Positions 41,170 through 60,051 of a DNA stretch of 64,000 nucleotides are shown here, piece after piece. This DNA comes from Leptolyngbya ohadii IS1 (GTDB taxonomy: Bacteria; Cyanobacteriota; Cyanobacteriia; Elainellales; Elainellaceae). Both the position numbers and the translations under genes were made by a program. The notes under the pieces are model-generated. The model saw nothing but the letters and a program-made list of their open reading frames with translations, made no database searches and was not told where the DNA came from. How positions within the stretch are numbered: position 1 is the stretch's first letter; each line of letters begins with the position of its first letter. The stretch spans positions 865,501-929,500 of the forward strand of contig NZ_NKFP01000001.1 in assembly GCF_002215035.1 (NCBI RefSeq). Direction: 5' to 3'.

Positions 41170-41993
41170 CATTAGAGGGTCGAGAACAGATTACGTTACC
41201 TGCCCGATTGATTGAGCCAGGAGCGCAAGAGTCGATCGCCCGACTTCAACGGCAATGCTTTGTGGAACTGGGGACGGTACAGCAGTTTCACGCCTGGTTA
41301 GATGACAAGCGGCAGTGTCGGCAGGCTTGTCGAGTGATTGGGGACTCCCGCACGGGAAAGACGATAGCCTGTGATGCATATCGGCTGAAATATGCGAGTC
41401 AAACTGCGAGTGGGGATGCGCCGATTGTGCCTGTGATCTACTGGCACGCGACGACGGAGACGGGGCAGCGGGAATTGTTCGTGGGGCTGCTGGAGCATTT
41501 GAAATATCGCATTACGAATGGCACAATTTCTGACTTACGCGAGCGAGTGTATCGCTTATTGCGATCGTGTCAGGTGGAGATGATCATTTTGGACGAAGCG
41601 CATCGGTTTCGCCCCAAAACCTTTTCGGAGATTCGGGACATCTTCGATTTGCTGGGGATTGCCGTGGTGCTGGTGGGAACGGATCGCCTCGATGTCGTAG
41701 TCCGACGGGATGAACAGGTGCATAACCGCTTCATGGCGTGTCACCGCTTTCATCGATTTGATAGCCAAGCTTTGGAGGATACGACAGCCATTTGGGAGGA
41801 ATATGTATTGCGACTGCCCCAGCCCTCCGATCTGACCAGTGCAACGATGCAGAAGATTCTGGCAGCGACCACACGCGGATACCTGGGCACCCTCGATGAG
41901 ATATTACGAAACGCGGCTCGACGTGCTTTAGAGAGCGGGCAATCTCGAATTGAAGCATCCTTGCTGAATCAAGTTGCGCTGGAGTACAAGTGA
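41166..41993 (+). CDS. tnsC: TnsC/TniB-like AAA+ regulator ATPase
   Basis: A 275-residue AAA+ protein. Walker A is GDSRTGKT (59-66, K65), Walker B is MIILDE (139-144), followed by the sensor-like VVLVGTDRL and an arginine-rich C-terminal helical part. In this family TnsC polymerises on target DNA and recruits the transposase. The size matches type V-K TnsC (about 276). It overlaps tnsB by four bases and is four bases upstream of the tniQ ATG, a single translational unit. Confidence 0.95.
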   Translation: MTLEGREQITLPARLIEPGAQESIARLQRQCFVELGTVQQFHAWLDDKRQCRQACRVIGDSRTGKTIACDAYRLKYASQTASGDAPIVPVIYWHATTETGQRELFVGLLEHLKYRITNGTISDLRERVYRLLRSCQVEMIILDEAHRFRPKTFSEIRDIFDLLGIAVVLVGTDRLDVVVRRDEQVHNRFMACHRFHRFDSQALEDTTAIWEEYVLRLPQPSDLTSATMQKILAATTRGYLGTLDEILRNAARRALESGQSRIEASLLNQVALEYK

Positions 41994-41997
41994 CCCA

Positions 41998-42546
41998 ATG
42001 CCTGACGAGAGCTGGGTATTTCGAGTTGTACCTGCGCCGGGAGAAAGCTTGGGACACTTCCTGGGGCGGTTTCGCCGTGCGAATCATTTGAGCCATCGCG
42101 CGATCGCGGATCATTTGGGCGTGCGTGTGAAGTGGGTTGAAGACTGGGAGCTGCCGTCGAAGCGACGAAACCCGACCGAGTTGCAACTGATCGCCCTGTC
42201 AAAATTAGTAGAGGTTGACCCCAAACAACTGGCAAAGATGCTGCCGCCTGCTCGCCTGCACCTACAAACCCGCCTGTGTTCAGCTTGCTATGCAAAAACT
42301 TCGGTACATTTAGCGGTGTGGCAGCGATCGGGGAGAACGGGGTGCGACCGTCATGCCCTGCGTCTCTTGTCAGTTTGTCCGGTTTGCAAGCATGGGTATC
42401 GCACCCCTGCCCTGTGGGAAGACGAACACTGTGAAGGGTGTGGGCTGGCATTTGGACAAATGCAGTCGTATCAGGAACCGATTCGCAAGCGTGGACAATC
42501 GACTCCATCAACCGCCTCGCCTGACGAGCTAGACGGTCGCCAGTAG
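41998..42546 (+). CDS. tniQ: TniQ-family target-selection protein
   Basis: A 182-residue TniQ protein. The ATG at 41998 is preferred over the TTG at 41974, which lies inside tnsC. The N-terminal part has the TniQ signature (FRVVPAPGESLGHFLGRFRR) and an HTH-like HRAIADHLGV. Two zinc-finger-like clusters follow: C94, C97, C116, H119 and C127, C130, C145, C148. In V-K elements TniQ links Cas12k to TnsC; with no Cas12k here, its partner for target choice is unknown. The last bases overlap the convergent small gene by 18. Confidence 0.92.
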   Translation: MPDESWVFRVVPAPGESLGHFLGRFRRANHLSHRAIADHLGVRVKWVEDWELPSKRRNPTELQLIALSKLVEVDPKQLAKMLPPARLHLQTRLCSACYAKTSVHLAVWQRSGRTGCDRHALRLLSVCPVCKHGYRTPALWEDEHCEGCGLAFGQMQSYQEPIRKRGQSTPSTASPDELDGRQ

Positions 42547-42894
42547 GAATTTGATCATCCAGTAAACTTCCCTGCCGCCAATCGGCTCATGGGCTTGCTG
42601 AAACTGGGATTTGAGCTGCTTGAGCAGATCGTCCTGCTCGATAATCTCGTCGGAGTAGTCCCACTTGCCGGGGGTGAGTCTGCGAGAAATGGTGGCACGA
42701 TCGGTTGCAATCTTTTCTAGCTGGAGTGCAGCACAGGCGGCGTAGAAGGTAGGTTGGAGCGCATCGACTTGCTGTTGGAGTTCCGTTAGTTGAGCGCGGA
42801 GGTCGAGCATCGCATTGATGATTTCGAGTGGATCGAGAAAGTCAGAGGCGGAGGAGTCGATCGTGGTAATTGGTGGCTGAACGTCTAGCTTCAT
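42529..42894 (-). CDS. Small coiled-coil hypothetical protein, first cargo gene
   Basis: A 121-residue protein convergent with tniQ and overlapping its end by 18 bases. The middle has heptad-like leucines (DLRAQLTELQQQVDALQ), followed by a helical stretch and an HEPIGGREVYW motif near the end. I do not recognise the family. It could be a plasmid- or element-specific DNA-binding or structural factor; there is no evidence for either. Confidence 0.6.
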   Translation of the reverse strand: MKLDVQPPITTIDSSASDFLDPLEIINAMLDLRAQLTELQQQVDALQPTFYAACAALQLEKIATDRATISRRLTPGKWDYSDEIIEQDDLLKQLKSQFQQAHEPIGGREVYWMIKFLLATV

Positions 42895-43381
42895 AATTTA
42901 CCAACGTGAAGAGAGTGAAGCTACTGTAGAGCCGATTGGGGCAGGGGGTGGAGGAAGAAACTGTTAAAGTTGCCTATCTTCAATTTCAAGCTCTACGAAG
43001 CCGGAGCAGTGGCAGAATGATTTGTTCTTAGAATCTGTGCCAGGTGGTCAATAGGCGCTCATGTGCGATCGGTGAAGCTGCACCTTGATCTGATTACACT
43101 CCACCAGTCGAGTTGCTTCCTAATCGAACGGTGTTTGCTTTTAGGTAATTTCTCTCTTAAGTGGAATTACGGTCTAATTATTGTTATTTAAATATTCAGT
43201 AATATTTCACAAGTCCTGGAAATCAGGAAGGTTGTTGGGGAATCATAATTTAAGGAAGGAAAATGCCAATCGAAGTTATTATCTGGCTGTTATTAGAAGC
43301 CCTTTGATTGCATCGATTGATTCCACTGCCGCTAATCTACCGTTTTAGCGACTGTCGTTCATTTCTTCACTCAGTCAGGCA
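42895..43381. promoter_or_regulatory. Divergent promoter region between cargo genes
   Basis: About 487 bases between the small cargo gene (leftward) and the DUF4347 gene (rightward). It contains an AT-rich tract around 43170-43215. Only one weak resemblance to a reversed TnsB site (GTGGTCAAT, 43026-43034) was seen. No gene is visible. Confidence 0.4.
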
Positions 43382-46300
43382 ATGATAGTGCAACCGCTCG
43401 TTCGTCCAGAGCAATCGCCTTCCTCGCGTCCAAGTTTAGAAACGGGGCGATCGATCGTCATCATCGACACCGCTCTTGCAGACTATCAAAGCCTCTTTGC
43501 GGGTGTCACGCCAAGCTATGAAGTGTATTTAGTCAATGCGAACCAGTGCGGCGTTGCTCAAATCACTGAGATGCTGCGCCAACAGAGCGGCATTGCCCAA
43601 CTGCATCTTCTATCGCATGGGAGCGCGGGGGAACTGCTCCTGGGCAAGAGCGTGCTGTCTTTGGAAACTTTGCCTGCTCATGCGGTTCAACTGCAAACCT
43701 GGCGCAGTGCCCTGAGTCAATCCGCCGAGATTCTCCTGTATGGCTGCGAAGTGGCGCAGGGGGATCGCGGACAACAGTTTGTGCAGCAGTTGAGTAAGTT
43801 GACCGGAGCGAGTATTGCTGCGGCTTCGACAAAAATTGGCAACTCCAGTTTAGGGGGAACCTGGACTCTGGATACGGTCATTGGCACTGTTACTGGTTCC
43901 TTGGCATCACAGCCAATCGCGATCGAGGCGTATGCGGGGATTTTGAGTTCTAACCCAGTGCAGTACAACCTGAACCCGTCAACCCAAAGCGCTTTCCCTC
44001 GTCACTTAATCAACGTGGATGGCACGCTCTACTTCACCGCCAGTCCAGACGGGGATGAATTTTCCTGGGAACGGGAACTGTGGAAGCTTGATCCGACTAC
44101 AGATCGTTTGGTCCGCATTGAACTTGAACCGGGAGTCTATAGTTTTTCTCCGACTCATTTCGCTCGTATTAATAGCACGGTGTACTTTGCTGCAACCAAC
44201 AGCACGAATGGACGGGAGATTTGGAAGATTGATCCTGCGATCGATGCTCCGGTGCGTCTTACCGATATTGAACCGGGGACAGGCAGTTCTTCTCCCACCA
44301 ATCTCACCAATGTCAACGGCACCCTGTACCTTGTCGCAACAAACAGTGCTACCGGACGAGAACTGTGGAAGCTTGATCCGACTACAGGAGCTTCAGAGCG
44401 ACTCACAGACATTGAACCGGGTGCAGGTAATTCTTCCCCCTCTGATCTCACTAACGTCAATGGCACCCTGTACTTTGTCGCGACGAACAGTGCGAGTGGA
44501 CGAGAACTGTGGAAGCTTGATCCAAGCTCAGGAACTCCCGTGCGGCTTACAGAAATTGAGCCAGGTGCAGCCAGTTCCGATCTCTTTAATCTCACCAATG
44601 TCAACGGAACACTTTATTTCATCGCAGTCGATCGCCGCAGCGAACGGCACTTGTGGAAGGTTGACCCTGTAACAGGCAGCCCAGTCCGAGTCGAATCTGC
44701 ATCGGGAGGAAGCATTGCCGGGGTTCGCAATCTCACTAACGTGAATGGCACGCTGTACTTTGTAGCCAGACAAGGCATTGGCGGCAACGAGCTGTGGAAG
44801 GTTGATCCGACGACAGGCGATCCGGTGCAGGTGGATTTTGAGCCAAGGGTATCTAGCTCCTCGCTTGAACATCTCACCAATGTCAACGGCACGCTCTACT
44901 TTTTCTCGATATCGAGTGCCTCTGGACAAGGACTCTGGAAAATCGATCCGGTCACAGGTAATCCTGCGCGAGTCGAACTTGCACCAGGGTCATTCATTTC
45001 TTCATCCCCCAGGATGACCAACGTGAACGGCACGCTGTACTTCAACGTCATCAGTGCCAACGGAAATGAACTGTGGCGGATTGATCCAGCGACCGGCAAT
45101 CCTATGCGAGTGAATGTTGAGCTGGGGGCAAACATTTTCTTGCCTCAGCCTCTCACCACCGTCAACGGGACACTCTACACGGTAGCGACAAATCGCGATA
45201 TTGGGCAGGAGCTGTGGCGGCTTGATTTAACCACGGGCAATCAATCGCTGATCGACATCAATACTCACGGTGTAGGCTCCTCTCCTGCCAATCTGATCAA
45301 CATTAACGGGACGCTATACTTTGCAGCAACGGATGCTGCTACTGGACGAGAGCTGTGGCGAATTGATCCGACGACTGGCAATCCCATTCGTATTACCGAT
45401 ATTGAACCAGGTCCAGCAGGTTCTTTCCCGGCAAACTTCGTCAACATCAACGGCACGCTCTACTTCAGTGCCAACCGCCTCGACCCCTCTAGTGGTGCTA
45501 ACAGACGGGAACTGTGGCGGGTTGATCCTGCTACCGGCAATCCCATCCGGGTTGAAGTGCATCCGGGAGTTGGCATCTCTCGTCCTAGAGTGAACCTTGG
45601 TTGGGAAGTCGATTTCTTCCTGCCTGAAAATTCCATCAACGTCAATGGCACACTGTACTTCCGGGCGAATAGCAGTGTTACAGGACAGGAACTGTGGCGG
45701 ATTAACGCGACGACCGGTAACGTGGAGCTGCTTGACATTGAACCCGGTGCAACGGGGTCTTCTCCCCACAGCTTCGTCAACGTCAACGGCACGCTCTATT
45801 TTATTGCCCGCAGCCGAGCGAACAGAGAAGAACTGTGGAAAATTAATCCTGCAACAGGCAATCCGGTATTAATCGAAATTGAACCAGGGACGGACAGTTC
45901 CTCTCCTAGCTCTTTCGGCAACATTAACGGTCTTATTGGCAACATTAACGGCACCTTGTACTTTGCTGCCTACAACAAAGCCAGCGAACTAGAATTGTGG
46001 AAGCTTGACCCAACCACAGACACCCCGGTACGACTTACCCGTATCGATCCAAGAGGAGACGGTTCCAGTTTTCACACCCTTATCAACGTCAACGGCACCG
46101 ACTACCTTAGTGTTTCTAACAACGCAGGAGGCAGAGAGCTGTGGAAGTTTGACTTGACGACCGGAAACGCGGCACGAATCGAAACTGCTTCAGGAGCCGT
46201 CCTTTCTTCTCCACAAGAAATAACGAATGTCAATGGCACTCTGTACCTCATTGCCAATCGAGGAGAACTGTGGAAGCTTGACCCGACGACTGGAAATCCA

Positions 46301-48226
46301 TCATTGATAGGGGCGACTGATGGCTACAATCTCACTAACGTTAACGGCACGCTCTACTTTGTTGTTAACGGTAATGAACTGTGGCGAGTTCATCCAACGA
46401 CAGGCAACCTGGAACGGCTTGAAATAGAAGCATTCGGAGGAACACCTTCGTTCTCCAATTTCACTAACGTTAACGGTACGCTCTACTTCAGTGCCTTCAA
46501 TCGTGCAAATGGCAATGAACTGTGGCGGGTTGACCCAACCACGGGTGATTTAGTCCGACTCGAAATCGAACTAGGAGTAGACGGTTCTTCTCCTCACAGT
46601 CTGACGAATGTCAACGGCACACTCTACTTTAGTGCCTACACTCGTGCGAATGGACGATCGCTGTGGCGCATTAATCCGAGTACGAACCAGCCAGAACGGG
46701 TGATTGACTTTAATCCAGGTGCGGATAATTCTGATCTTTTCGTCCTCGGCTTTGAAAACGGCAGGCTTTATCTCTCAGCGGGTAGTCGAACTGATGGTGC
46801 AGAGCTTTGGACGTTGGACCTGTCCAGGACGATCGACTCACTGAATGCTGCTCCAACTATCGTGGCTCCGATTGCAAACCAAATAGCAGCAGAAGATGCC
46901 GCATTTCGCTTCACTATTTCAACCAACAGCTTCGCAGACCCCGATCCGGGAGATCGTCTTACCTATACCGCAACGCTGGCAGATGGGCGAGTTCTTCCAG
47001 ACTGGCTGCGATTTGATGCTGTAACTCGAACCCTGAGCGGTACGGCATCGAATGAGAACGTGGGGACAATCAGTGTCAGGATAACCGCCACCGATCGAGC
47101 GGGTGATGCGGTCAGCAACACTTTCAACTTAACCGTTACCAATACCAACGATGCTCCTGTCCTAACAAAGGCAATTCCAGATCAGGTTGCCGCAGTGGAA
47201 ACATTGTTTAGCCTTACCCTGCCAAGCGATACTTTTAACGACACAGACGCGATCGATGCACTGACCCTGAGTGCTACGCTTGCAAATGGAAGTCCGCTTC
47301 CTGCGTGGCTTCGCTTTGACGCAGCCACACGTACTTTGAGTGGAACCCCTCCTCAGGGAAGTGCAGGGCGACTCAATCTCAGAATCATTGCTATAGATCA
47401 GGCGAGCGAATTGGTTAGCGATGAGTTTGAGCTTGTCATTACTGACAATCACTCCGATCGCAATGGCAGTACAAGCGGGTCTGAAGCTTCTGGCAATAAC
47501 GGGACCGGTAGCAATCCTGGCAGCGGTGGTAGTAATCCTGGCGGCAGTTCTGGTGGCATTCCTGGCACCGATTTCAATCGTCGTGATCAGGCTCAAGCCG
47601 ACCGCTCTCCCGTGCAGCCCCTGCCGCAAACCTTTGTCGGTACCCCGCAATCTGATCGGTTGGAAGGCAGTGAGGCAGCAGATATTTTGCTGGGTCAAGC
47701 GGGTAACGATATGCTGCTCGGTAACGGCGGTGACGATCACTTGGTCGGGGGTACAGGTAGAGATATTTTGAGCGGGGGGGCTGGTGCTGATCGCTTCGTC
47801 TACAACGTGGGAAGTCTGGCAAAGCAGCAGCGCAATTCTATCTTGCCTAACCTCGAACGCCTCATTGACTTGAATCCGACCGAGGGCGATAGGATTGTGC
47901 TTAATTTCGACGCAAACCCATCTTCGGTCGAGCAACCTCGCGGCTTGTTTAATGCTGGGCATCAGCGAGGTCGTCGATTAGAGAACGCCATTCAATCGGC
48001 TTTCCAGGACAAGAATCAACGGCAACGGGGCAAGCAAAAGCTTGAAGCAAACGAGGCAGTGTTCCTAACTTGGAAAAGGCGCACTTTTCTAGCTATCAAC
48101 GATAGTGTTCGTTCTCGAAATAGCGCAGGTGTCAATTTTTCACCTCACCGTGATTTGGTGATTGATGTTACGGGCATCTCTTCGATCGCGACTGGAACCC
48201 TTAACGTAGAAACTTACTTTGCCTAA
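43382..48226 (+). CDS. Giant DUF4347 / ELW-repeat / RTX surface or secreted protein
   Basis: A 1614-residue protein. Residues about 22-188 are a DUF4347 domain, with a His-Cys pair (H79 in LLSHGSAG, C122 in LLYGCEVAQG) that recalls the dyad of caspase/CHAT-like folds. Some 20 repeats of about 47 residues follow (about 190-1145), each built on VNGTLYF, GRELWKLDPTTG and IEPGXXSSSP. Next come two cadherin-like Ig modules (about 1145-1355, each with LPDWLRFD or LPAWLRFD), a Gly/Ser linker, and RTX calcium repeats (GNDMLLGNGGDDHLVGG, about 1425-1465). The RTX part predicts type I secretion. Known relatives are large exported cyanobacterial proteins; the function of this one is unknown, with adhesion or a protease-like role possible. 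Confidence 0.9.
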   Translation: MIVQPLVRPEQSPSSRPSLETGRSIVIIDTALADYQSLFAGVTPSYEVYLVNANQCGVAQITEMLRQQSGIAQLHLLSHGSAGELLLGKSVLSLETLPAHAVQLQTWRSALSQSAEILLYGCEVAQGDRGQQFVQQLSKLTGASIAAASTKIGNSSLGGTWTLDTVIGTVTGSLASQPIAIEAYAGILSSNPVQYNLNPSTQSAFPRHLINVDGTLYFTASPDGDEFSWERELWKLDPTTDRLVRIELEPGVYSFSPTHFARINSTVYFAATNSTNGREIWKIDPAIDAPVRLTDIEPGTGSSSPTNLTNVNGTLYLVATNSATGRELWKLDPTTGASERLTDIEPGAGNSSPSDLTNVNGTLYFVATNSASGRELWKLDPSSGTPVRLTEIEPGAASSDLFNLTNVNGTLYFIAVDRRSERHLWKVDPVTGSPVRVESASGGSIAGVRNLTNVNGTLYFVARQGIGGNELWKVDPTTGDPVQVDFEPRVSSSSLEHLTNVNGTLYFFSISSASGQGLWKIDPVTGNPARVELAPGSFISSSPRMTNVNGTLYFNVISANGNELWRIDPATGNPMRVNVELGANIFLPQPLTTVNGTLYTVATNRDIGQELWRLDLTTGNQSLIDINTHGVGSSPANLININGTLYFAATDAATGRELWRIDPTTGNPIRITDIEPGPAGSFPANFVNINGTLYFSANRLDPSSGANRRELWRVDPATGNPIRVEVHPGVGISRPRVNLGWEVDFFLPENSINVNGTLYFRANSSVTGQELWRINATTGNVELLDIEPGATGSSPHSFVNVNGTLYFIARSRANREELWKINPATGNPVLIEIEPGTDSSSPSSFGNINGLIGNINGTLYFAAYNKASELELWKLDPTTDTPVRLTRIDPRGDGSSFHTLINVNGTDYLSVSNNAGGRELWKFDLTTGNAARIETASGAVLSSPQEITNVNGTLYLIANRGELWKLDPTTGNPSLIGATDGYNLTNVNGTLYFVVNGNELWRVHPTTGNLERLEIEAFGGTPSFSNFTNVNGTLYFSAFNRANGNELWRVDPTTGDLVRLEIELGVDGSSPHSLTNVNGTLYFSAYTRANGRSLWRINPSTNQPERVIDFNPGADNSDLFVLGFENGRLYLSAGSRTDGAELWTLDLSRTIDSLNAAPTIVAPIANQIAAEDAAFRFTISTNSFADPDPGDRLTYTATLADGRVLPDWLRFDAVTRTLSGTASNENVGTISVRITATDRAGDAVSNTFNLTVTNTNDAPVLTKAIPDQVAAVETLFSLTLPSDTFNDTDAIDALTLSATLANGSPLPAWLRFDAATRTLSGTPPQGSAGRLNLRIIAIDQASELVSDEFELVITDNHSDRNGSTSGSEASGNNGTGSNPGSGGSNPGGSSGGIPGTDFNRRDQAQADRSPVQPLPQTFVGTPQSDRLEGSEAADILLGQAGNDMLLGNGGDDHLVGGTGRDILSGGAGADRFVYNVGSLAKQQRNSILPNLERLIDLNPTEGDRIVLNFDANPSSVEQPRGLFNAGHQRGRRLENAIQSAFQDKNQRQRGKQKLEANEAVFLTWKRRTFLAINDSVRSRNSAGVNFSPHRDLVIDVTGISSIATGTLNVETYFA

Positions 48227-48245
48227 TGTAGAGTTGTCAGCTATT

Positions 48246-50384
48246 TCAGTCCGTTTGATTCTCAAACTTTTGTACGATCGCCCGTAGTTCCTCGATCGCC
48301 TTCCCCTCAATGAACTGCTGATAAATGGGTTTAAGCTGTCCCCGGTCTTTATCTTTACCATTGCTTCTGGCATTGAGACCGATTGCGGCATTGTGCTGGT
48401 CGAGCTGTTCGACAGCGATCGGGTGACTCTGAAGCCAGGGCGTGACGACGAGGGCGGGGTTTGCCCCAGCAGCGGTGGCAATGACGTTCCCGGACAGATA
48501 CCAGCGATCGTGGGGAGGGCAGTTTTGGTTGTGGTGGATGAGGGCTGCGATCGCCAGCGGCACTCGGTCGGAGGGTGAAAGCTTCCCGAATGACGGTCTA
48601 CCCAGAGCGGGGCGGGGCGTTGGTGCTGGCTGTTGCACGGGTGGCTGATTGACGGGTGGCGGCTGAATTGGCGCGGGTTGGGGGACTGGCGTAAGTTGAA
48701 CTCCTGCCAGTCCTTGAGCGGCGGCGGCAATTTGAGCAAGGCGATCGTGCGCGGTCTGGAGTTCGGTGCGGAGGCGGTCGATTTCCTGCTGTTGTTGTTC
48801 GGTTTGCTGGCGTAACTGCTCCAGTTCTTCGGCTTGCTGACCGACAGATACCTGCTGTTTGATAGCCGCGAGTTCCTGTAACAGGGGAGCCAGGAGATGA
48901 TTGGGGTCAGGTATTGCCTGCTCAGTCGGAGCGGAGGGGACGGTTAGTAGCACCCGATCGAGCAGGGATTGATAGCCTGTTCTACCGGAGGAGTCAAGAC
49001 CGAGACGATCGGCAGCGGCAGACAGATCTACCAGATTTACCCGCAACTCCCGATAGCGGGGTTTGCTGCGCTTCGGCTTGCTGGGCTGGTGAGCAGCCGG
49101 TGCAGCTTCGGTCGGCTCTTGCGTCGTCGAGGATGGCAGAGATTCTTTTTCCGGTAAGGTTTGCAGGTCTATGGCAACTTCTTCAACTTCGTGCTGTGTG
49201 GGAGACATAACTGCTTCCTCTGGGCGGGTAAAGTCTAGTTCTGTGGTGTCCGAGTCCAAGCGGTCGTTCGCTGCCTGCTGCTGCTGCACCTGGCGATCGG
49301 AGAGACTGGGCAGCGGGTTCGCCATGAGCTTGATGCCCGTCACCGTGATCGGCTTACCCTGGTCGTTCACCAGGCAATAGCCGAAATAGTGGGAGGCGGA
49401 ATTGCTGTTAGCGGCATCGCGCATCTCCCCAGGGGTGACGTGCCCCAGATAGAACTGCAACCATCGCTGCTCATTCACCCCCTGCCCTGGCAGCCAGTAG
49501 TGAATCGCCACCCGTGCATAAGCCGCCCGAAGCCTGTGAACGCTGACACTCCCAAACCCTGGTAGCAGCGGCAGGATTTGGGAGTCCTGAAAATGATGTC
49601 TAACTCTGGTGTTGACCCTTGCCCGAAAAGCCGCCACTTCCCGGTCGGCACTGGTGAGTCCGGCTAGTGCTTGCACCTGGGGAAAGGCTCTAAAGCGATC
49701 GATCGCCTCCAGCACTGCTTGAGCCGGAAGTAGGGTGAGAATCGTGTACGCGATAGGATCAGCCTTTTTGAGTTGCCCGTCGAAGGTGAGCAGATAGGAA
49801 TGCCGGGTTGAGGAGAAGCGACCAGAGACGGCAACCTCCGTGTGCCGCCTGCCCGTCACAGCAGCGATGCCCACCGCCAATGTTTCCGGCTCCTGTGCTT
49901 GCAGTAGTTGCTCTGCCTTTCCCAAATAGCGATCGGGGTTGAAAGGCTGGGGGTTGTCCTGACGTTCGTTGTTGCCGATGTTGGTTTGTTTCCGGTTAGA
50001 GAGGTAAACGGAATTGTCATAGCGCATCAAGTCAAACGCGAGATGCTGAAGTGCCTGGATCGGCTTCCCCGTCCGTTTGCGCCCCTTGAACATAAAAGAG
50101 GTGGCATCGGTCATCGGTAGCTTGCCCGCCTCGGTTGCTTGGGCTATAGCCGTTCGGTACTTGCTCAAGTAGTTGACCGTGCTGTTTGTGCCCTTGCCGT
50201 AACCCAACTCCAGCAGTTCGATCTCATCCTGGCACAGTTGCTCTATTGCCTCAGCCGATAGGAGGGATTGCAGCCGATCGATAAAAGCTTGCACCAGGAA
50301 GTCCCGCTCCTGGGTGCTGAGTTTTTGCCTGTCCCCGCGCTGGAGGCGATCGTGATAGTTGCTAATAATCTCATCCCGATTCAT
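48246..50384 (-). CDS. Candidate telomere resolvase (protelomerase), tyrosine-recombinase fold
   Basis: A 712-residue protein reading away from the palindrome axis; its start codon is 638 bases from it. The tyrosine-recombinase set is visible: R180 in AVTGRRHTEV, K206/K207 in FDGQLKK, H283 and R286 in SVHRLRAAYA, H315 in FYLGHVTP and a nucleophile Tyr at Y333 (or Y336) in SASHYFGY. The TGRRxxEV plus xGQxK pairing is, as I recall, characteristic of the TelN/TelK/TelA protelomerase group (Telomere_res) rather than of phage integrases. The N-terminal 165 residues are helical. From about 500 there is a coiled coil (LEQLRQQTEQQQQEIDRLRT), then a Pro-rich linker and a separate C-terminal domain of about 110 residues. 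Such enzymes cut a palindrome and reseal each side as a hairpin. Confidence 0.8.
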   Translation of the reverse strand: MNRDEIISNYHDRLQRGDRQKLSTQERDFLVQAFIDRLQSLLSAEAIEQLCQDEIELLELGYGKGTNSTVNYLSKYRTAIAQATEAGKLPMTDATSFMFKGRKRTGKPIQALQHLAFDLMRYDNSVYLSNRKQTNIGNNERQDNPQPFNPDRYLGKAEQLLQAQEPETLAVGIAAVTGRRHTEVAVSGRFSSTRHSYLLTFDGQLKKADPIAYTILTLLPAQAVLEAIDRFRAFPQVQALAGLTSADREVAAFRARVNTRVRHHFQDSQILPLLPGFGSVSVHRLRAAYARVAIHYWLPGQGVNEQRWLQFYLGHVTPGEMRDAANSNSASHYFGYCLVNDQGKPITVTGIKLMANPLPSLSDRQVQQQQAANDRLDSDTTELDFTRPEEAVMSPTQHEVEEVAIDLQTLPEKESLPSSTTQEPTEAAPAAHQPSKPKRSKPRYRELRVNLVDLSAAADRLGLDSSGRTGYQSLLDRVLLTVPSAPTEQAIPDPNHLLAPLLQELAAIKQQVSVGQQAEELEQLRQQTEQQQQEIDRLRTELQTAHDRLAQIAAAAQGLAGVQLTPVPQPAPIQPPPVNQPPVQQPAPTPRPALGRPSFGKLSPSDRVPLAIAALIHHNQNCPPHDRWYLSGNVIATAAGANPALVVTPWLQSHPIAVEQLDQHNAAIGLNARSNGKDKDRGQLKPIYQQFIEGKAIEELRAIVQKFENQTD

Positions 50385-50396
50385 ATTGATGCTCTC

Positions 50397-50787
50397 GTAT
50401 TCATATACATATTATATATGCATACTCAACTTATACACAACAGGATAAACGGACGATCGCTCCCTTCTGAGGCGCAGCCCAAACCGTTCCATGCTGGAGA
50501 CGATCGTGGAACGGGCAGGACGATCCGGCTTCACCGCAGCATAAGAGGCGATCGCCCCTTACTCTGTGCAATAGTGCAGCAACAAGCGACAGCGCAGCCC
50601 TAAGCCGACCCACCTGCGGCATATCGTGGGGCGATCGTTTCACGCTACGACCTAGAGTGCCTCGACAGGCGATCGCCGCAGAAAGCCCAGTGCTTATCGA
50701 AGCTCTCATCCTTGTACCACTGATACAAATTGCTTATACGCCCTTGTTCTGTATATGCAATTCGATTTGATGTTTGTATTCATATAC
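50397..50787 (+). repeat. Repeated 12-mer GTATTCATATAC in the subtelomeric region
   Basis: Exact copies at 50397-50408 and 50776-50787, both followed by further TATA-rich sequence, one overlapping the resolvase leader and one about 240 bases from the axis. Mirror copies are at 51637-51648 and 51258-51269. Candidate binding sites for the resolvase or a replication factor. Confidence 0.6.
50411..50440 (-). promoter_or_regulatory. Likely resolvase promoter
   Basis: Reading leftward, TTGTGT (50440-50435) and TATAAT (50416-50411) are 18 bases apart and lie 27 bases before the resolvase ATG. One copy of the repeat GTATTCATATAC (50397-50408) sits between the -10 element and the start codon, where a bound protein would block transcription. 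Confidence 0.55.
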
Positions 50788-51604
50788 GCATATAGGACAA
50801 AATCTCTTATGTGTATAATATAGGACGGCGATCGTTGTATATATCCACAAAACACTATAACGTTCACACAGTAATACTTTCAACAATTTCGCTGTCTGTT
50901 TGCCTGCATTTATACATATACAAACACAAGAAGCGATCGCCTTTTATACATAAGATATTTGTATATATAAGAATATGCTATATGCGATCTTGTGTATTAG
51001 TATACGTATATGTAATATAGAATTCTATATTACATATACGTATACTAATACACAAGATCGCATATAGCATATTCTTATATATACAAATATCTTATGTATA
51101 AAAGGCGATCGCTTCTTGTGTTTGTATATGTATAAATGCAGGCAAACAGACAGCGAAATTGTTGAAAGTATTACTGTGTGAACGTTATAGTGTTTTGTGG
51201 ATATATACAACGATCGCCGTCCTATATTATACACATAAGAGATTTTGTCCTATATGCGTATATGAATACAAACATCAAATCGAATTGCATATACAGAACA
51301 AGGGCGTATAAGCAATTTGTATCAGTGGTACAAGGATGAGAGCTTCGATAAGCACTGGGCTTTCTGCGGCGATCGCCTGTCGAGGCACTCTAGGTCGTAG
51401 CGTGAAACGATCGCCCCACGATATGCCGCAGGTGGGTCGGCTTAGGGCTGCGCTGTCGCTTGTTGCTGCACTATTGCACAGAGTAAGGGGCGATCGCCTC
51501 TTATGCTGCGGTGAAGCCGGATCGTCCTGCCCGTTCCACGATCGTCTCCAGCATGGAACGGTTTGGGCTGCGCCTCAGAAGGGAGCGATCGTCCGTTTAT
51601 CCTG

Positions 51605-51634
51605 TTGTGTATAAGTTGAGTATGCATATATAAT
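51605..51634 (+). promoter_or_regulatory. Likely resolvase promoter, mirror copy
   Basis: Mirror of 50411-50440: TTGTGT at 51605 and TATAAT at 51629-51634, with GTATATGAATAC at 51637-51648 before the ATG at 51661. Confidence 0.55.
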
Positions 51635-51660
51635 ATGTATATGAATACGAGAGCATCAAT

Positions 51661-53799
51661 ATGAATCGGGATGAGATTATTAGCAACTATCACGATCGCC
51701 TCCAGCGCGGGGACAGGCAAAAACTCAGCACCCAGGAGCGGGACTTCCTGGTGCAAGCTTTTATCGATCGGCTGCAATCCCTCCTATCGGCTGAGGCAAT
51801 AGAGCAACTGTGCCAGGATGAGATCGAACTGCTGGAGTTGGGTTACGGCAAGGGCACAAACAGCACGGTCAACTACTTGAGCAAGTACCGAACGGCTATA
51901 GCCCAAGCAACCGAGGCGGGCAAGCTACCGATGACCGATGCCACCTCTTTTATGTTCAAGGGGCGCAAACGGACGGGGAAGCCGATCCAGGCACTTCAGC
52001 ATCTCGCGTTTGACTTGATGCGCTATGACAATTCCGTTTACCTCTCTAACCGGAAACAAACCAACATCGGCAACAACGAACGTCAGGACAACCCCCAGCC
52101 TTTCAACCCCGATCGCTATTTGGGAAAGGCAGAGCAACTACTGCAAGCACAGGAGCCGGAAACATTGGCGGTGGGCATCGCTGCTGTGACGGGCAGGCGG
52201 CACACGGAGGTTGCCGTCTCTGGTCGCTTCTCCTCAACCCGGCATTCCTATCTGCTCACCTTCGACGGGCAACTCAAAAAGGCTGATCCTATCGCGTACA
52301 CGATTCTCACCCTACTTCCGGCTCAAGCAGTGCTGGAGGCGATCGATCGCTTTAGAGCCTTTCCCCAGGTGCAAGCACTAGCCGGACTCACCAGTGCCGA
52401 CCGGGAAGTGGCGGCTTTTCGGGCAAGGGTCAACACCAGAGTTAGACATCATTTTCAGGACTCCCAAATCCTGCCGCTGCTACCAGGGTTTGGGAGTGTC
52501 AGCGTTCACAGGCTTCGGGCGGCTTATGCACGGGTGGCGATTCACTACTGGCTGCCAGGGCAGGGGGTGAATGAGCAGCGATGGTTGCAGTTCTATCTGG
52601 GGCACGTCACCCCTGGGGAGATGCGCGATGCCGCTAACAGCAATTCCGCCTCCCACTATTTCGGCTATTGCCTGGTGAACGACCAGGGTAAGCCGATCAC
52701 GGTGACGGGCATCAAGCTCATGGCGAACCCGCTGCCCAGTCTCTCCGATCGCCAGGTGCAGCAGCAGCAGGCAGCGAACGACCGCTTGGACTCGGACACC
52801 ACAGAACTAGACTTTACCCGCCCAGAGGAAGCAGTTATGTCTCCCACACAGCACGAAGTTGAAGAAGTTGCCATAGACCTGCAAACCTTACCGGAAAAAG
52901 AATCTCTGCCATCCTCGACGACGCAAGAGCCGACCGAAGCTGCACCGGCTGCTCACCAGCCCAGCAAGCCGAAGCGCAGCAAACCCCGCTATCGGGAGTT
53001 GCGGGTAAATCTGGTAGATCTGTCTGCCGCTGCCGATCGTCTCGGTCTTGACTCCTCCGGTAGAACAGGCTATCAATCCCTGCTCGATCGGGTGCTACTA
53101 ACCGTCCCCTCCGCTCCGACTGAGCAGGCAATACCTGACCCCAATCATCTCCTGGCTCCCCTGTTACAGGAACTCGCGGCTATCAAACAGCAGGTATCTG
53201 TCGGTCAGCAAGCCGAAGAACTGGAGCAGTTACGCCAGCAAACCGAACAACAACAGCAGGAAATCGACCGCCTCCGCACCGAACTCCAGACCGCGCACGA
53301 TCGCCTTGCTCAAATTGCCGCCGCCGCTCAAGGACTGGCAGGAGTTCAACTTACGCCAGTCCCCCAACCCGCGCCAATTCAGCCGCCACCCGTCAATCAG
53401 CCACCCGTGCAACAGCCAGCACCAACGCCCCGCCCCGCTCTGGGTAGACCGTCATTCGGGAAGCTTTCACCCTCCGACCGAGTGCCGCTGGCGATCGCAG
53501 CCCTCATCCACCACAACCAAAACTGCCCTCCCCACGATCGCTGGTATCTGTCCGGGAACGTCATTGCCACCGCTGCTGGGGCAAACCCCGCCCTCGTCGT
53601 CACGCCCTGGCTTCAGAGTCACCCGATCGCTGTCGAACAGCTCGACCAGCACAATGCCGCAATCGGTCTCAATGCCAGAAGCAATGGTAAAGATAAAGAC
53701 CGGGGACAGCTTAAACCCATTTATCAGCAGTTCATTGAGGGGAAGGCGATCGAGGAACTACGGGCGATCGTACAAAAGTTTGAGAATCAAACGGACTGA
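51661..53799 (+). CDS. Candidate telomere resolvase, mirror copy
   Basis: Identical in translated sequence to the gene at 48246-50384, on the other strand. If the right arm is a read-through of a hairpin end, this is the same physical gene seen twice. If the palindrome is real DNA, the cell has two divergent copies facing away from the axis. Confidence 0.8.
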   Translation: MNRDEIISNYHDRLQRGDRQKLSTQERDFLVQAFIDRLQSLLSAEAIEQLCQDEIELLELGYGKGTNSTVNYLSKYRTAIAQATEAGKLPMTDATSFMFKGRKRTGKPIQALQHLAFDLMRYDNSVYLSNRKQTNIGNNERQDNPQPFNPDRYLGKAEQLLQAQEPETLAVGIAAVTGRRHTEVAVSGRFSSTRHSYLLTFDGQLKKADPIAYTILTLLPAQAVLEAIDRFRAFPQVQALAGLTSADREVAAFRARVNTRVRHHFQDSQILPLLPGFGSVSVHRLRAAYARVAIHYWLPGQGVNEQRWLQFYLGHVTPGEMRDAANSNSASHYFGYCLVNDQGKPITVTGIKLMANPLPSLSDRQVQQQQAANDRLDSDTTELDFTRPEEAVMSPTQHEVEEVAIDLQTLPEKESLPSSTTQEPTEAAPAAHQPSKPKRSKPRYRELRVNLVDLSAAADRLGLDSSGRTGYQSLLDRVLLTVPSAPTEQAIPDPNHLLAPLLQELAAIKQQVSVGQQAEELEQLRQQTEQQQQEIDRLRTELQTAHDRLAQIAAAAQGLAGVQLTPVPQPAPIQPPPVNQPPVQQPAPTPRPALGRPSFGKLSPSDRVPLAIAALIHHNQNCPPHDRWYLSGNVIATAAGANPALVVTPWLQSHPIAVEQLDQHNAAIGLNARSNGKDKDRGQLKPIYQQFIEGKAIEELRAIVQKFENQTD

Positions 53800-53818
53800 A
53801 ATAGCTGACAACTCTACA

Positions 53819-56800
53819 TTAGGCAAAGTAAGTTTCTACGTTAAGGGTTCCAGTCGCGATCGAAGAGATGCCCGTAACATCAATCACCAAATCACGGTGA
53901 GGTGAAAAATTGACACCTGCGCTATTTCGAGAACGAACACTATCGTTGATAGCTAGAAAAGTGCGCCTTTTCCAAGTTAGGAACACTGCCTCGTTTGCTT
54001 CAAGCTTTTGCTTGCCCCGTTGCCGTTGATTCTTGTCCTGGAAAGCCGATTGAATGGCGTTCTCTAATCGACGACCTCGCTGATGCCCAGCATTAAACAA
54101 GCCGCGAGGTTGCTCGACCGAAGATGGGTTTGCGTCGAAATTAAGCACAATCCTATCGCCCTCGGTCGGATTCAAGTCAATGAGGCGTTCGAGGTTAGGC
54201 AAGATAGAATTGCGCTGCTGCTTTGCCAGACTTCCCACGTTGTAGACGAAGCGATCAGCACCAGCCCCCCCGCTCAAAATATCTCTACCTGTACCCCCGA
54301 CCAAGTGATCGTCACCGCCGTTACCGAGCAGCATATCGTTACCCGCTTGACCCAGCAAAATATCTGCTGCCTCACTGCCTTCCAACCGATCAGATTGCGG
54401 GGTACCGACAAAGGTTTGCGGCAGGGGCTGCACGGGAGAGCGGTCGGCTTGAGCCTGATCACGACGATTGAAATCGGTGCCAGGAATGCCACCAGAACTG
54501 CCGCCAGGATTACTACCACCGCTGCCAGGATTGCTACCGGTCCCGTTATTGCCAGAAGCTTCAGACCCGCTTGTACTGCCATTGCGATCGGAGTGATTGT
54601 CAGTAATGACAAGCTCAAACTCATCGCTAACCAATTCGCTCGCCTGATCTATAGCAATGATTCTGAGATTGAGTCGCCCTGCACTTCCCTGAGGAGGGGT
54701 TCCACTCAAAGTACGTGTGGCTGCGTCAAAGCGAAGCCACGCAGGAAGCGGACTTCCATTTGCAAGCGTAGCACTCAGGGTCAGTGCATCGATCGCGTCT
54801 GTGTCGTTAAAAGTATCGCTTGGCAGGGTAAGGCTAAACAATGTTTCCACTGCGGCAACCTGATCTGGAATTGCCTTTGTTAGGACAGGAGCATCGTTGG
54901 TATTGGTAACGGTTAAGTTGAAAGTGTTGCTGACCGCATCACCCGCTCGATCGGTGGCGGTTATCCTGACACTGATTGTCCCCACGTTCTCATTCGATGC
55001 CGTACCGCTCAGGGTTCGAGTTACAGCATCAAATCGCAGCCAGTCTGGAAGAACTCGCCCATCTGCCAGCGTTGCGGTATAGGTAAGACGATCTCCCGGA
55101 TCGGGGTCTGCGAAGCTGTTGGTTGAAATAGTGAAGCGAAATGCGGCATCTTCTGCTGCTATTTGGTTTGCAATCGGAGCCACGATAGTTGGAGCAGCAT
55201 TCAGTGAGTCGATCGTCCTGGACAGGTCCAACGTCCAAAGCTCTGCACCATCAGTTCGACTACCCGCTGAGAGATAAAGCCTGCCGTTTTCAAAGCCGAG
55301 GACGAAAAGATCAGAATTATCCGCACCTGGATTAAAGTCAATCACCCGTTCTGGCTGGTTCGTACTCGGATTAATGCGCCACAGCGATCGTCCATTCGCA
55401 CGAGTGTAGGCACTAAAGTAGAGTGTGCCGTTGACATTCGTCAGACTGTGAGGAGAAGAACCGTCTACTCCTAGTTCGATTTCGAGTCGGACTAAATCAC
55501 CCGTGGTTGGGTCAACCCGCCACAGTTCATTGCCATTTGCACGATTGAAGGCACTGAAGTAGAGCGTACCGTTAACGTTAGTGAAATTGGAGAACGAAGG
55601 TGTTCCTCCGAATGCTTCTATTTCAAGCCGTTCCAGGTTGCCTGTCGTTGGATGAACTCGCCACAGTTCATTACCGTTAACAACAAAGTAGAGCGTGCCG
55701 TTAACGTTAGTGAGATTGTAGCCATCAGTCGCCCCTATCAATGATGGATTTCCAGTCGTCGGGTCAAGCTTCCACAGTTCTCCTCGATTGGCAATGAGGT
55801 ACAGAGTGCCATTGACATTCGTTATTTCTTGTGGAGAAGAAAGGACGGCTCCTGAAGCAGTTTCGATTCGTGCCGCGTTTCCGGTCGTCAAGTCAAACTT
55901 CCACAGCTCTCTGCCTCCTGCGTTGTTAGAAACACTAAGGTAGTCGGTGCCGTTGACGTTGATAAGGGTGTGAAAACTGGAACCGTCTCCTCTTGGATCG
56001 ATACGGGTAAGTCGTACCGGGGTGTCTGTGGTTGGGTCAAGCTTCCACAATTCTAGTTCGCTGGCTTTGTTGTAGGCAGCAAAGTACAAGGTGCCGTTAA
56101 TGTTGCCAATAAGACCGTTAATGTTGCCGAAAGAGCTAGGAGAGGAACTGTCCGTCCCTGGTTCAATTTCGATTAATACCGGATTGCCTGTTGCAGGATT
56201 AATTTTCCACAGTTCTTCTCTGTTCGCTCGGCTGCGGGCAATAAAATAGAGCGTGCCGTTGACGTTGACGAAGCTGTGGGGAGAAGACCCCGTTGCACCG
56301 GGTTCAATGTCAAGCAGCTCCACGTTACCGGTCGTCGCGTTAATCCGCCACAGTTCCTGTCCTGTAACACTGCTATTCGCCCGGAAGTACAGTGTGCCAT
56401 TGACGTTGATGGAATTTTCAGGCAGGAAGAAATCGACTTCCCAACCAAGGTTCACTCTAGGACGAGAGATGCCAACTCCCGGATGCACTTCAACCCGGAT
56501 GGGATTGCCGGTAGCAGGATCAACCCGCCACAGTTCCCGTCTGTTAGCACCACTAGAGGGGTCGAGGCGGTTGGCACTGAAGTAGAGCGTGCCGTTGATG
56601 TTGACGAAGTTTGCCGGGAAAGAACCTGCTGGACCTGGTTCAATATCGGTAATACGAATGGGATTGCCAGTCGTCGGATCAATTCGCCACAGCTCTCGTC
56701 CAGTAGCAGCATCCGTTGCTGCAAAGTATAGCGTCCCGTTAATGTTGATCAGATTGGCAGGAGAGGAGCCTACACCGTGAGTATTGATGTCGATCAGCGA

Positions 56801-58663
56801 TTGATTGCCCGTGGTTAAATCAAGCCGCCACAGCTCCTGCCCAATATCGCGATTTGTCGCTACCGTGTAGAGTGTCCCGTTGACGGTGGTGAGAGGCTGA
56901 GGCAAGAAAATGTTTGCCCCCAGCTCAACATTCACTCGCATAGGATTGCCGGTCGCTGGATCAATCCGCCACAGTTCATTTCCGTTGGCACTGATGACGT
57001 TGAAGTACAGCGTGCCGTTCACGTTGGTCATCCTGGGGGATGAAGAAATGAATGACCCTGGTGCAAGTTCGACTCGCGCAGGATTACCTGTGACCGGATC
57101 GATTTTCCAGAGTCCTTGTCCAGAGGCACTCGATATCGAGAAAAAGTAGAGCGTGCCGTTGACATTGGTGAGATGTTCAAGCGAGGAGCTAGATACCCTT
57201 GGCTCAAAATCCACCTGCACCGGATCGCCTGTCGTCGGATCAACCTTCCACAGCTCGTTGCCGCCAATGCCTTGTCTGGCTACAAAGTACAGCGTGCCAT
57301 TCACGTTAGTGAGATTGCGAACCCCGGCAATGCTTCCTCCCGATGCAGATTCGACTCGGACTGGGCTGCCTGTTACAGGGTCAACCTTCCACAAGTGCCG
57401 TTCGCTGCGGCGATCGACTGCGATGAAATAAAGTGTTCCGTTGACATTGGTGAGATTAAAGAGATCGGAACTGGCTGCACCTGGCTCAATTTCTGTAAGC
57501 CGCACGGGAGTTCCTGAGCTTGGATCAAGCTTCCACAGTTCTCGTCCACTCGCACTGTTCGTCGCGACAAAGTACAGGGTGCCATTGACGTTAGTGAGAT
57601 CAGAGGGGGAAGAATTACCTGCACCCGGTTCAATGTCTGTGAGTCGCTCTGAAGCTCCTGTAGTCGGATCAAGCTTCCACAGTTCTCGTCCGGTAGCACT
57701 GTTTGTTGCGACAAGGTACAGGGTGCCGTTGACATTGGTGAGATTGGTGGGAGAAGAACTGCCTGTCCCCGGTTCAATATCGGTAAGACGCACCGGAGCA
57801 TCGATCGCAGGATCAATCTTCCAAATCTCCCGTCCATTCGTGCTGTTGGTTGCAGCAAAGTACACCGTGCTATTAATACGAGCGAAATGAGTCGGAGAAA
57901 AACTATAGACTCCCGGTTCAAGTTCAATGCGGACCAAACGATCTGTAGTCGGATCAAGCTTCCACAGTTCCCGTTCCCAGGAAAATTCATCCCCGTCTGG
58001 ACTGGCGGTGAAGTAGAGCGTGCCATCCACGTTGATTAAGTGACGAGGGAAAGCGCTTTGGGTTGACGGGTTCAGGTTGTACTGCACTGGGTTAGAACTC
58101 AAAATCCCCGCATACGCCTCGATCGCGATTGGCTGTGATGCCAAGGAACCAGTAACAGTGCCAATGACCGTATCCAGAGTCCAGGTTCCCCCTAAACTGG
58201 AGTTGCCAATTTTTGTCGAAGCCGCAGCAATACTCGCTCCGGTCAACTTACTCAACTGCTGCACAAACTGTTGTCCGCGATCCCCCTGCGCCACTTCGCA
58301 GCCATACAGGAGAATCTCGGCGGATTGACTCAGGGCACTGCGCCAGGTTTGCAGTTGAACCGCATGAGCAGGCAAAGTTTCCAAAGACAGCACGCTCTTG
58401 CCCAGGAGCAGTTCCCCCGCGCTCCCATGCGATAGAAGATGCAGTTGGGCAATGCCGCTCTGTTGGCGCAGCATCTCAGTGATTTGAGCAACGCCGCACT
58501 GGTTCGCATTGACTAAATACACTTCATAGCTTGGCGTGACACCCGCAAAGAGGCTTTGATAGTCTGCAAGAGCGGTGTCGATGATGACGATCGATCGCCC
58601 CGTTTCTAAACTTGGACGCGAGGAAGGCGATTGCTCTGGACGAACGAGCGGTTGCACTATCAT
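53819..58663 (-). CDS. DUF4347 / ELW-repeat / RTX protein, mirror copy
   Basis: Identical 1614-residue mirror copy of the gene at 43382-48226. Its internal repeats are also identical between arms. Repeats of this kind normally drift by recombination, so the absence of any difference argues that the two copies are the same DNA or were made very recently. Confidence 0.9.
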   Translation of the reverse strand: MIVQPLVRPEQSPSSRPSLETGRSIVIIDTALADYQSLFAGVTPSYEVYLVNANQCGVAQITEMLRQQSGIAQLHLLSHGSAGELLLGKSVLSLETLPAHAVQLQTWRSALSQSAEILLYGCEVAQGDRGQQFVQQLSKLTGASIAAASTKIGNSSLGGTWTLDTVIGTVTGSLASQPIAIEAYAGILSSNPVQYNLNPSTQSAFPRHLINVDGTLYFTASPDGDEFSWERELWKLDPTTDRLVRIELEPGVYSFSPTHFARINSTVYFAATNSTNGREIWKIDPAIDAPVRLTDIEPGTGSSSPTNLTNVNGTLYLVATNSATGRELWKLDPTTGASERLTDIEPGAGNSSPSDLTNVNGTLYFVATNSASGRELWKLDPSSGTPVRLTEIEPGAASSDLFNLTNVNGTLYFIAVDRRSERHLWKVDPVTGSPVRVESASGGSIAGVRNLTNVNGTLYFVARQGIGGNELWKVDPTTGDPVQVDFEPRVSSSSLEHLTNVNGTLYFFSISSASGQGLWKIDPVTGNPARVELAPGSFISSSPRMTNVNGTLYFNVISANGNELWRIDPATGNPMRVNVELGANIFLPQPLTTVNGTLYTVATNRDIGQELWRLDLTTGNQSLIDINTHGVGSSPANLININGTLYFAATDAATGRELWRIDPTTGNPIRITDIEPGPAGSFPANFVNINGTLYFSANRLDPSSGANRRELWRVDPATGNPIRVEVHPGVGISRPRVNLGWEVDFFLPENSINVNGTLYFRANSSVTGQELWRINATTGNVELLDIEPGATGSSPHSFVNVNGTLYFIARSRANREELWKINPATGNPVLIEIEPGTDSSSPSSFGNINGLIGNINGTLYFAAYNKASELELWKLDPTTDTPVRLTRIDPRGDGSSFHTLINVNGTDYLSVSNNAGGRELWKFDLTTGNAARIETASGAVLSSPQEITNVNGTLYLIANRGELWKLDPTTGNPSLIGATDGYNLTNVNGTLYFVVNGNELWRVHPTTGNLERLEIEAFGGTPSFSNFTNVNGTLYFSAFNRANGNELWRVDPTTGDLVRLEIELGVDGSSPHSLTNVNGTLYFSAYTRANGRSLWRINPSTNQPERVIDFNPGADNSDLFVLGFENGRLYLSAGSRTDGAELWTLDLSRTIDSLNAAPTIVAPIANQIAAEDAAFRFTISTNSFADPDPGDRLTYTATLADGRVLPDWLRFDAVTRTLSGTASNENVGTISVRITATDRAGDAVSNTFNLTVTNTNDAPVLTKAIPDQVAAVETLFSLTLPSDTFNDTDAIDALTLSATLANGSPLPAWLRFDAATRTLSGTPPQGSAGRLNLRIIAIDQASELVSDEFELVITDNHSDRNGSTSGSEASGNNGTGSNPGSGGSNPGGSSGGIPGTDFNRRDQAQADRSPVQPLPQTFVGTPQSDRLEGSEAADILLGQAGNDMLLGNGGDDHLVGGTGRDILSGGAGADRFVYNVGSLAKQQRNSILPNLERLIDLNPTEGDRIVLNFDANPSSVEQPRGLFNAGHQRGRRLENAIQSAFQDKNQRQRGKQKLEANEAVFLTWKRRTFLAINDSVRSRNSAGVNFSPHRDLVIDVTGISSIATGTLNVETYFA

Positions 58664-59150
58664 TGCCTGACTGAGTGAAGAAATGAACGACAGTCGCTAA
58701 AACGGTAGATTAGCGGCAGTGGAATCAATCGATGCAATCAAAGGGCTTCTAATAACAGCCAGATAATAACTTCGATTGGCATTTTCCTTCCTTAAATTAT
58801 GATTCCCCAACAACCTTCCTGATTTCCAGGACTTGTGAAATATTACTGAATATTTAAATAACAATAATTAGACCGTAATTCCACTTAAGAGAGAAATTAC
58901 CTAAAAGCAAACACCGTTCGATTAGGAAGCAACTCGACTGGTGGAGTGTAATCAGATCAAGGTGCAGCTTCACCGATCGCACATGAGCGCCTATTGACCA
59001 CCTGGCACAGATTCTAAGAACAAATCATTCTGCCACTGCTCCGGCTTCGTAGAGCTTGAAATTGAAGATAGGCAACTTTAACAGTTTCTTCCTCCACCCC
59101 CTGCCCCAATCGGCTCTACAGTAGCTTCACTCTCTTCACGTTGGTAAATT
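58664..59150. promoter_or_regulatory. Divergent promoter region, mirror copy
   Basis: Mirror of 42895-43381; no gene seen. Confidence 0.4.
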
Positions 59151-59516
59151 ATGAAGCTAGACGTTCAGCCACCAATTACCACGATCGACTCCTCCGCCTC
59201 TGACTTTCTCGATCCACTCGAAATCATCAATGCGATGCTCGACCTCCGCGCTCAACTAACGGAACTCCAACAGCAAGTCGATGCGCTCCAACCTACCTTC
59301 TACGCCGCCTGTGCTGCACTCCAGCTAGAAAAGATTGCAACCGATCGTGCCACCATTTCTCGCAGACTCACCCCCGGCAAGTGGGACTACTCCGACGAGA
59401 TTATCGAGCAGGACGATCTGCTCAAGCAGCTCAAATCCCAGTTTCAGCAAGCCCATGAGCCGATTGGCGGCAGGGAAGTTTACTGGATGATCAAATTCCT
59501 ACTGGCGACCGTCTAG
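59151..59516 (+). CDS. Small coiled-coil hypothetical protein, mirror copy
   Basis: Identical to the 121-residue protein at 42529-42894, convergent with the mirror tniQ. Confidence 0.6.
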   Translation: MKLDVQPPITTIDSSASDFLDPLEIINAMLDLRAQLTELQQQVDALQPTFYAACAALQLEKIATDRATISRRLTPGKWDYSDEIIEQDDLLKQLKSQFQQAHEPIGGREVYWMIKFLLATV

Positions 59517-60047
59517 CTCGTCAGGCGAGGCGGTTGATGGAGTCGATTGTCCACGCTTGCGAATCGGTTCCTGATACGACTGCATTTGTCCAAATGCCAG
59601 CCCACACCCTTCACAGTGTTCGTCTTCCCACAGGGCAGGGGTGCGATACCCATGCTTGCAAACCGGACAAACTGACAAGAGACGCAGGGCATGACGGTCG
59701 CACCCCGTTCTCCCCGATCGCTGCCACACCGCTAAATGTACCGAAGTTTTTGCATAGCAAGCTGAACACAGGCGGGTTTGTAGGTGCAGGCGAGCAGGCG
59801 GCAGCATCTTTGCCAGTTGTTTGGGGTCAACCTCTACTAATTTTGACAGGGCGATCAGTTGCAACTCGGTCGGGTTTCGTCGCTTCGACGGCAGCTCCCA
59901 GTCTTCAACCCACTTCACACGCACGCCCAAATGATCCGCGATCGCGCGATGGCTCAAATGATTCGCACGGCGAAACCGCCCCAGGAAGTGTCCCAAGCTT
60001 TCTCCCGGCGCAGGTACAACTCGAAATACCCAGCTCTCGTCAGGCAT
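59499..60047 (-). CDS. tniQ: TniQ-family protein, mirror copy
   Basis: Identical to the tniQ gene at 41998-42546, including both zinc-finger-like clusters. Confidence 0.92.
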   Translation of the reverse strand: MPDESWVFRVVPAPGESLGHFLGRFRRANHLSHRAIADHLGVRVKWVEDWELPSKRRNPTELQLIALSKLVEVDPKQLAKMLPPARLHLQTRLCSACYAKTSVHLAVWQRSGRTGCDRHALRLLSVCPVCKHGYRTPALWEDEHCEGCGLAFGQMQSYQEPIRKRGQSTPSTASPDELDGRQ

Positions 60048-60051
60048 TGGG

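Follow-up and report, generated by a model that had tools for sequence, protein, structure and literature searches.

Probable joined hairpin telomeres, with a telomere resolvase gene beside their axis, in a large contig of the cyanobacterium Leptolyngbya ohadii IS1

The 7.9-Mb genome of Leptolyngbya ohadii IS1 is assembled in eight contigs, and the stretch of DNA analyzed here (the window, 64,000 nucleotides, C1:865501-929500) lies inside contig C1 of 1,546,434 bp, where it raises the question of why a bacterial contig should fold back on itself as a perfect palindrome right beside a gene resembling a protelomerase. Self-comparison of the window returned an inverted repeat that is 100% complementary and spacer-free, and extension into C1 showed it to be perfect over 14,465 bp per arm (28.9 kb), from window position 36558 to C1:930987. 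Both arms stop abruptly at their outer edges, and the flanks beyond them are unrelated to each other. A palindrome this large and perfect cannot have originated by chance. Its axis falls at 51022/51023 and the resolvase ATG lies 638 bp away, exactly where a first-pass annotation of this DNA had put the axis and the reading frame. The elements of the palindrome are as follows.

36558..51022, no strand: left palindrome arm, the terminal inverted repeat in the reading below, 14,465 bp
51023..64000, no strand: right palindrome arm up to the window end, extending to C1:930987
51013..51032, no strand: palindrome center TAATATAGAATTCTATATTA, putative resolution site; its GAATTC center is common to other cyanobacterial telomere tips
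50950..50964, plus strand: telomeric box ATAAGATATTTGTAT, 58 bp from the axis
51081..51095, minus strand: mirror copy of the telomeric box
50723..50737, minus strand: second, divergent box ATAAGCAATTTGTAT, with its mirror at 51308-51322

Around the axis, the 15-mer ATAAGATATTTGTAT is matched four times with up to two mismatches, compared to 0.10 expected from shuffles, and the axis itself is the putative site of cleavage by the resolvase, whose gene and domains are listed here.

48246..50384, minus strand: telomere resolvase (protelomerase) gene, 712 aa, read away from the axis
51661..53799, plus strand: identical mirror copy of the resolvase gene
49377..49949, minus strand: catalytic domain, residues 146-336 (Pfam range and conservation), with R180, K206, H283xxR286, H315 and Y333
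48708..48833, minus strand: long coiled-coil-like helix, residues 518-559 (AlphaFold2 model)
48252..48575, minus strand: C-terminal six-helix domain, residues 604-711 (pLDDT 90 folded alone)

The first-pass annotation had called this a protelomerase-like gene and had proposed a profile search against PF16684 and a structure comparison with TelK and TelA, and both now agree with that reading. In the Pfam search, the protein matched PF16684, the catalytic domain of the telomere resolvases ResT and TelK, with 153.2 bits against a cut-off of 27 (E 7.1e-45), covering positions 3-181 of the 181 in the profile, and no integrase Pfam family matched at E up to 0.1. Against the NF052462 equivalog for TelA of Agrobacterium it scored 28.9 bits, far below the 800-bit cut-off. 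A profile of 28 homologues searched against the PDB found TelA (8e-21), TelK (1.5e-16), and ResT (1.7e-6), with nothing beyond these three at E up to 0.001. When the AlphaFold2 model (mean pLDDT 77.8, with residues 1-350 mostly at 80-98 per ten-residue block) was used in a fold search, TelA (Z 23.9), TelK (18.0), and ResT (14.3) ranked first, while Xer, Cre, and Int proteins reached at most 9.8 (XerA, 9.8). The R...K...HxxR...H...Y tyrosine-recombinase set read earlier from the letters is conserved, as R180, K206, R286, and Y333 are invariant across 27-28 cyanobacterial homologues and H283 and H315 vary little or not at all. R180, K206, H283, R286, and H315 correspond to R255, K286, Y363, R366, and H394 of TelA (active-site residues from PMC3558466), and Y333, judging by its invariance and position, would pair with TelA Y405. 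Family, fold, and active site together support the prediction that the gene product is a telomere resolvase of the TelA/TelK/ResT class.

Beyond residue 360, the AlphaFold2 model continues with a disordered linker, the long helix, and then the six-helix domain. This C-terminal half had been described as unlike anything recognized in known resolvases, and it does differ from the solved ones, as the six-helix domain was without a match in Pfam, PHROG, or solved structures (best Z 4.0, too weak for use). A C-terminal stirrup domain is present in TelK and absent from TelA (PMC3558466). The cyanobacterial domain appears to be new.

Taken together, these data are best explained, at a probability of roughly 0.88, if the window holds two hairpin telomeres, joined in assembly, of a megabase-sized linear replicon that has terminal repeats of 14.5 kb and a resolvase targeting the axis. 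A resolvase gene would begin 638 bp in from the tip of each terminal inverted repeat, and the two identical 14,465-bp arms meeting at the axis would be the replicon ends. Replication of such a molecule would copy around each hairpin and produce a palindromic joint, at which a resolvase dimer, using Tyr333, would break the two strands a few bases to each side of the axis and reseal each as a hairpin. Both ends would appear joined in the contig as a result of reads passing around the hairpin and of 14.5 kb of identity between the ends; nanopore reads that run around hairpins are described for linear plasmids of Rhizobiaceae (PMC13293297). The earlier idea that the enzyme acts on a perfect palindrome holds for the sequence, which is exact, and needs amending for the cell, where the intact 29-kb form is probably absent and two hairpin ends have rather been joined in assembly.

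Of 390 species genomes sampled from this cyanobacterial class, 86 have members of the PF16684 family, and the pairing of gene and palindrome recurs among them. Fold-back palindromes were found at 7 of 31 contig ends upstream of the resolvase gene, the remaining 24 being without one, compared to none of 12 downstream ends. Such upstream ends occur on short-read contigs of Oculatella (two contigs), Phormidium tenue FACHB-1052, Nodosilinea, FACHB-60, and Crocosphaera, and one more relative, beyond these seven ends, also has one. In P. tenue FACHB-1052, both ends of a single 172,842-bp contig fold back, and each has a resolvase gene close by. Whole palindromes around mirrored resolvase genes are present in P. 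priestleyi BC1401 (17,482 bp, centered between the two genes) and in ULC007, where the center is unread (N). A third case lies within the single 4.68-Mb contig of another cyanobacterial genome, G053, which starts at dnaA and contains a 6,159-bp palindrome (G053:C1:2110111-2116269, axis at 2.113 Mb) with one odd central base, centered between mirrored resolvase genes that encode two resolvase-like domains. At every telomere seen, the resolvase gene faces the tip. This recurrence at independent telomeres bears out the first-pass view that the pairing is unlikely to be an assembly artefact.

The clearest view of how such ends are deposited comes from comparing two plasmid records. The record of pGLO7428.02, submitted as a linear plasmid, has identical terminal repeats of 1,340 bp and 36-bp fold-back tips centered on GGAATTCC, and the same tip lies inside a 3,476-bp spacer-free palindrome (NZ_CP119970.1:209323-212798) of a Gloeocapsopsis dulcis plasmid that was deposited as circular and is probably linear. 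The two records indicate that an assembler can turn a linear molecule of this kind into a false circle, and this would account for the window. The tip centers read GAATTC in P. tenue, Nodosilinea, Crocosphaera, pGLO7428.02, and G. dulcis, GATATC in FACHB-60, and GTTAAC in Oculatella and one further relative. An exact copy of the box ATAAGATATTTGTAT lies 26 bp from the tip of this last relative, and Oculatella and P. priestleyi have copies with one mismatch close to their tips. Some family members are on records deposited as circular or distant from any end, so the gene alone is no proof of an adjacent telomere, and the ends of Cy782202, which was deposited as linear, showed no fold-back tip. 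Short (about 400 aa) and weak PF16684 proteins were seen in two small cyanobacterial genomes (G046:C1:2077179 and G065:C1:1196145), and a Synechococcus elongatus control gives a PF16684 signal as they do. The viral contigs searched held no relative of the 712-aa protein and no copy of the TTTTTTGGAATTCCAAAAAA tip.

Within the L. ohadii genome itself, a further telomere-like end is found on contig C7, whose sequence ends 643 bp upstream of the start codon of a resolvase 81% identical to that of the window. An exact copy of the box ATAAGATATTTGTAT lies about 13 bp from the contig end, and C7 falls roughly 50-60 bp short of the expected tip. The first 5,436 bp of contig C2 (C2:1-5436) are 100% identical to this terminal region in inverted orientation. 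A second resolvase gene was also noted on C7 (C7:251532-252104), 40 kb from the C7 end, and no palindrome was found near it. As for the nature of C1, its start lies within an rRNA operon, it carries one tRNA gene compared to 14 on C4 and 53 on C6, DnaA and ribosomal protein S13 are encoded on C6, and C1:77317-79001 encodes a plasmid-type ParA/ParB pair with an adjoining tyrosine integrase. Among ten proteins from each arm, none was named as a universal core gene, an rRNA scan of contig ends gave no link between C1, C4, and C6, and GC skew along C1 is flat and locates no terminus. Broken 23S rRNA fragments were observed at C1:300634-302501, in a 20-kb sample whose GC content of 38% sets it apart from the rest of C1. 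In FACHB-502, of the same genus, the left flank runs into other, non-telomeric DNA and the right flank is on a different contig, so the position of the telomere is not conserved. C1 may belong to the main chromosome as its arms, form a second chromosome, or be a chimera of two telomeres. We see an even chance that the main chromosomes of L. ohadii IS1 and of the 4.68-Mb G053 are linear, with hairpin telomeres and a resolvase in each terminal repeat, and go unrecognized in databases, where they stand as circles or as contigs containing a large internal palindrome.

That the flanks differ while the terminal repeats are identical would also be expected if they came from two different linear replicons sharing the 14.5-kb telomeric repeat, with the contig a chimera at the shared telomere; the mechanism would be as above, and the genome map alone would differ. 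At least one more linear candidate exists in the genome (C7/C2), and the plasmid-type parA/parB at 77-79 kb and the single tRNA gene of C1 fit such an origin. However, the telomeric DNA of C7/C2 is only about 80% identical to that of C1, so that repeat is not shared, and the 14.5-kb repeat was on no other contig end examined, which leaves the chimera unlikely, if still a serious contender for the genome map.

Taken literally, the contig describes a circular replicon in which the 28.9-kb palindrome is real and its target site stays unresolved. However, bacteria do not stably maintain long, perfect palindromes that lack a spacer, an active enzyme made from the gene 638 bp away would resolve this one, and the tip that is internal in G. 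dulcis is terminal in pGLO7428.02, deposited as linear, so we hold a true circle to be very improbable. Fold-back chimeras are known in long-read data, and a random inversion in assembly or library could by coincidence have landed beside a resolvase gene, but the outer flanks here differ, unlike those of simple fold-back chimeras, and the axis-to-gene layout and telomeric box recur across independent genomes and sequencing types, making such an accident barely credible. The protein could finally be a relative used otherwise, in integration, dimer resolution, or DNA annealing, and not act on the axis, given that family members also occur away from ends and that a strand-annealing activity of resolvases is named in the title of PMC7861564; the fully kept active-site residues, the TelA-like fold, and the gene facing the tip at every telomere seen speak against this, and we consider such a use highly doubtful.

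If the window does hold joined hairpin telomeres, the 14.5-kb arm is a terminal repeat, and it contains, besides the resolvase gene, a Tn7-like module that may be telomere-linked and worth study.

39403-41169, plus strand: Tn7-like TnsB-like gene (Pfam Mu-transpos_C/rve)
41166-41993, plus strand: TnsC/TniB-like gene (Pfam TniB)
41974-42546, plus strand: TniQ-like gene (Pfam TniQ)

DNA homologous to this module (39403-42546) is also located after the resolvase, with the order preserved, in C7/C2 and in the FACHB-502 end contig. A gene at 43382-48226 for a 1614-aa protein with DUF4347, Ig-like, and RTX repeats takes up most of the interval that separates the resolvase from the Tn7-like genes. 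At the left edge, a transposase remnant (36243-36557) abuts the terminal repeat, and its 226-bp end is found again at C1:1350035 and C1:1537620, which suggests a part for insertion sequences in shaping the chromosome ends.

To our knowledge, the characterized telomere resolvases come from a few phages, Borrelia, and Agrobacterium. Target sites that can be read in several genera provide natural enzyme-site pairs for biochemistry and linear-DNA technology, and a spacer-free palindrome near a PF16684 gene offers a simple test for linear replicons misdeposited as circles. If C1 and the 4.68-Mb contig are main chromosomes, cyanobacteria would join the few bacteria with linear chromosomes. Cyanobacteria were named among hairpin-ended bacteria, without detail, in 2013 (PMC3558466), and a 2018 paper deduced hairpin ends from reads for three linear plasmids of Nostoc N6, without mention of a telomere resolvase and with 'telomer' absent from its text (PMC5987646); all three plasmid records encode the PF16684-type resolvase family. 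In the non-subscription literature searched, we found no description of a telomere resolvase and its site on a chromosome-sized cyanobacterial replicon. Cyanobacterial hairpin linear plasmids are already published, and telomeres on chromosome-sized replicons, with their site sequences, appear to be new.

Among known systems, TelA of the Agrobacterium linear chromid resembles the cyanobacterial resolvase in the fold of its catalytic and core-binding parts (Z 23.9 across 276 residues at 24% identity), its active-site residues, a palindromic target (putative here) with a short center, and its use on a large replicon, but has no counterpart of the C-terminal coiled coil, the Pro-rich linker, or the helical domain, and its target center is TCATGA rather than GAATTC. 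TelK and TelN of the plasmid-prophages phiKO2 and N15 share the catalytic fold (TelK Z 18.0) and a gene near the palindromic site, but are phage-borne, whereas no relative of the cyanobacterial enzyme was in the viral contigs searched, and differ in the C-terminal region, with a stirrup domain in TelK (PMC3558466). ResT of Borrelia is alike in its catalytic domain (Z 14.3) and, in the reading proposed here, in serving linear, chromosome-scale replicons; however, a single resT, carried by a circular plasmid, acts for both the linear chromosome and the plasmids (PMC4379921), whereas here the gene lies inside each putative terminal repeat. The Nostoc sp. N6 hairpin linear plasmids (PMC5987646) and pGLO7428.02 share the family gene with the L. 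ohadii locus and, in the reading proposed here, also terminal inverted repeats and hairpin or fold-back tips, but they are plasmids of 22-202 kb, unlike C1, and the Nostoc tips read AAATTAACRGAC.
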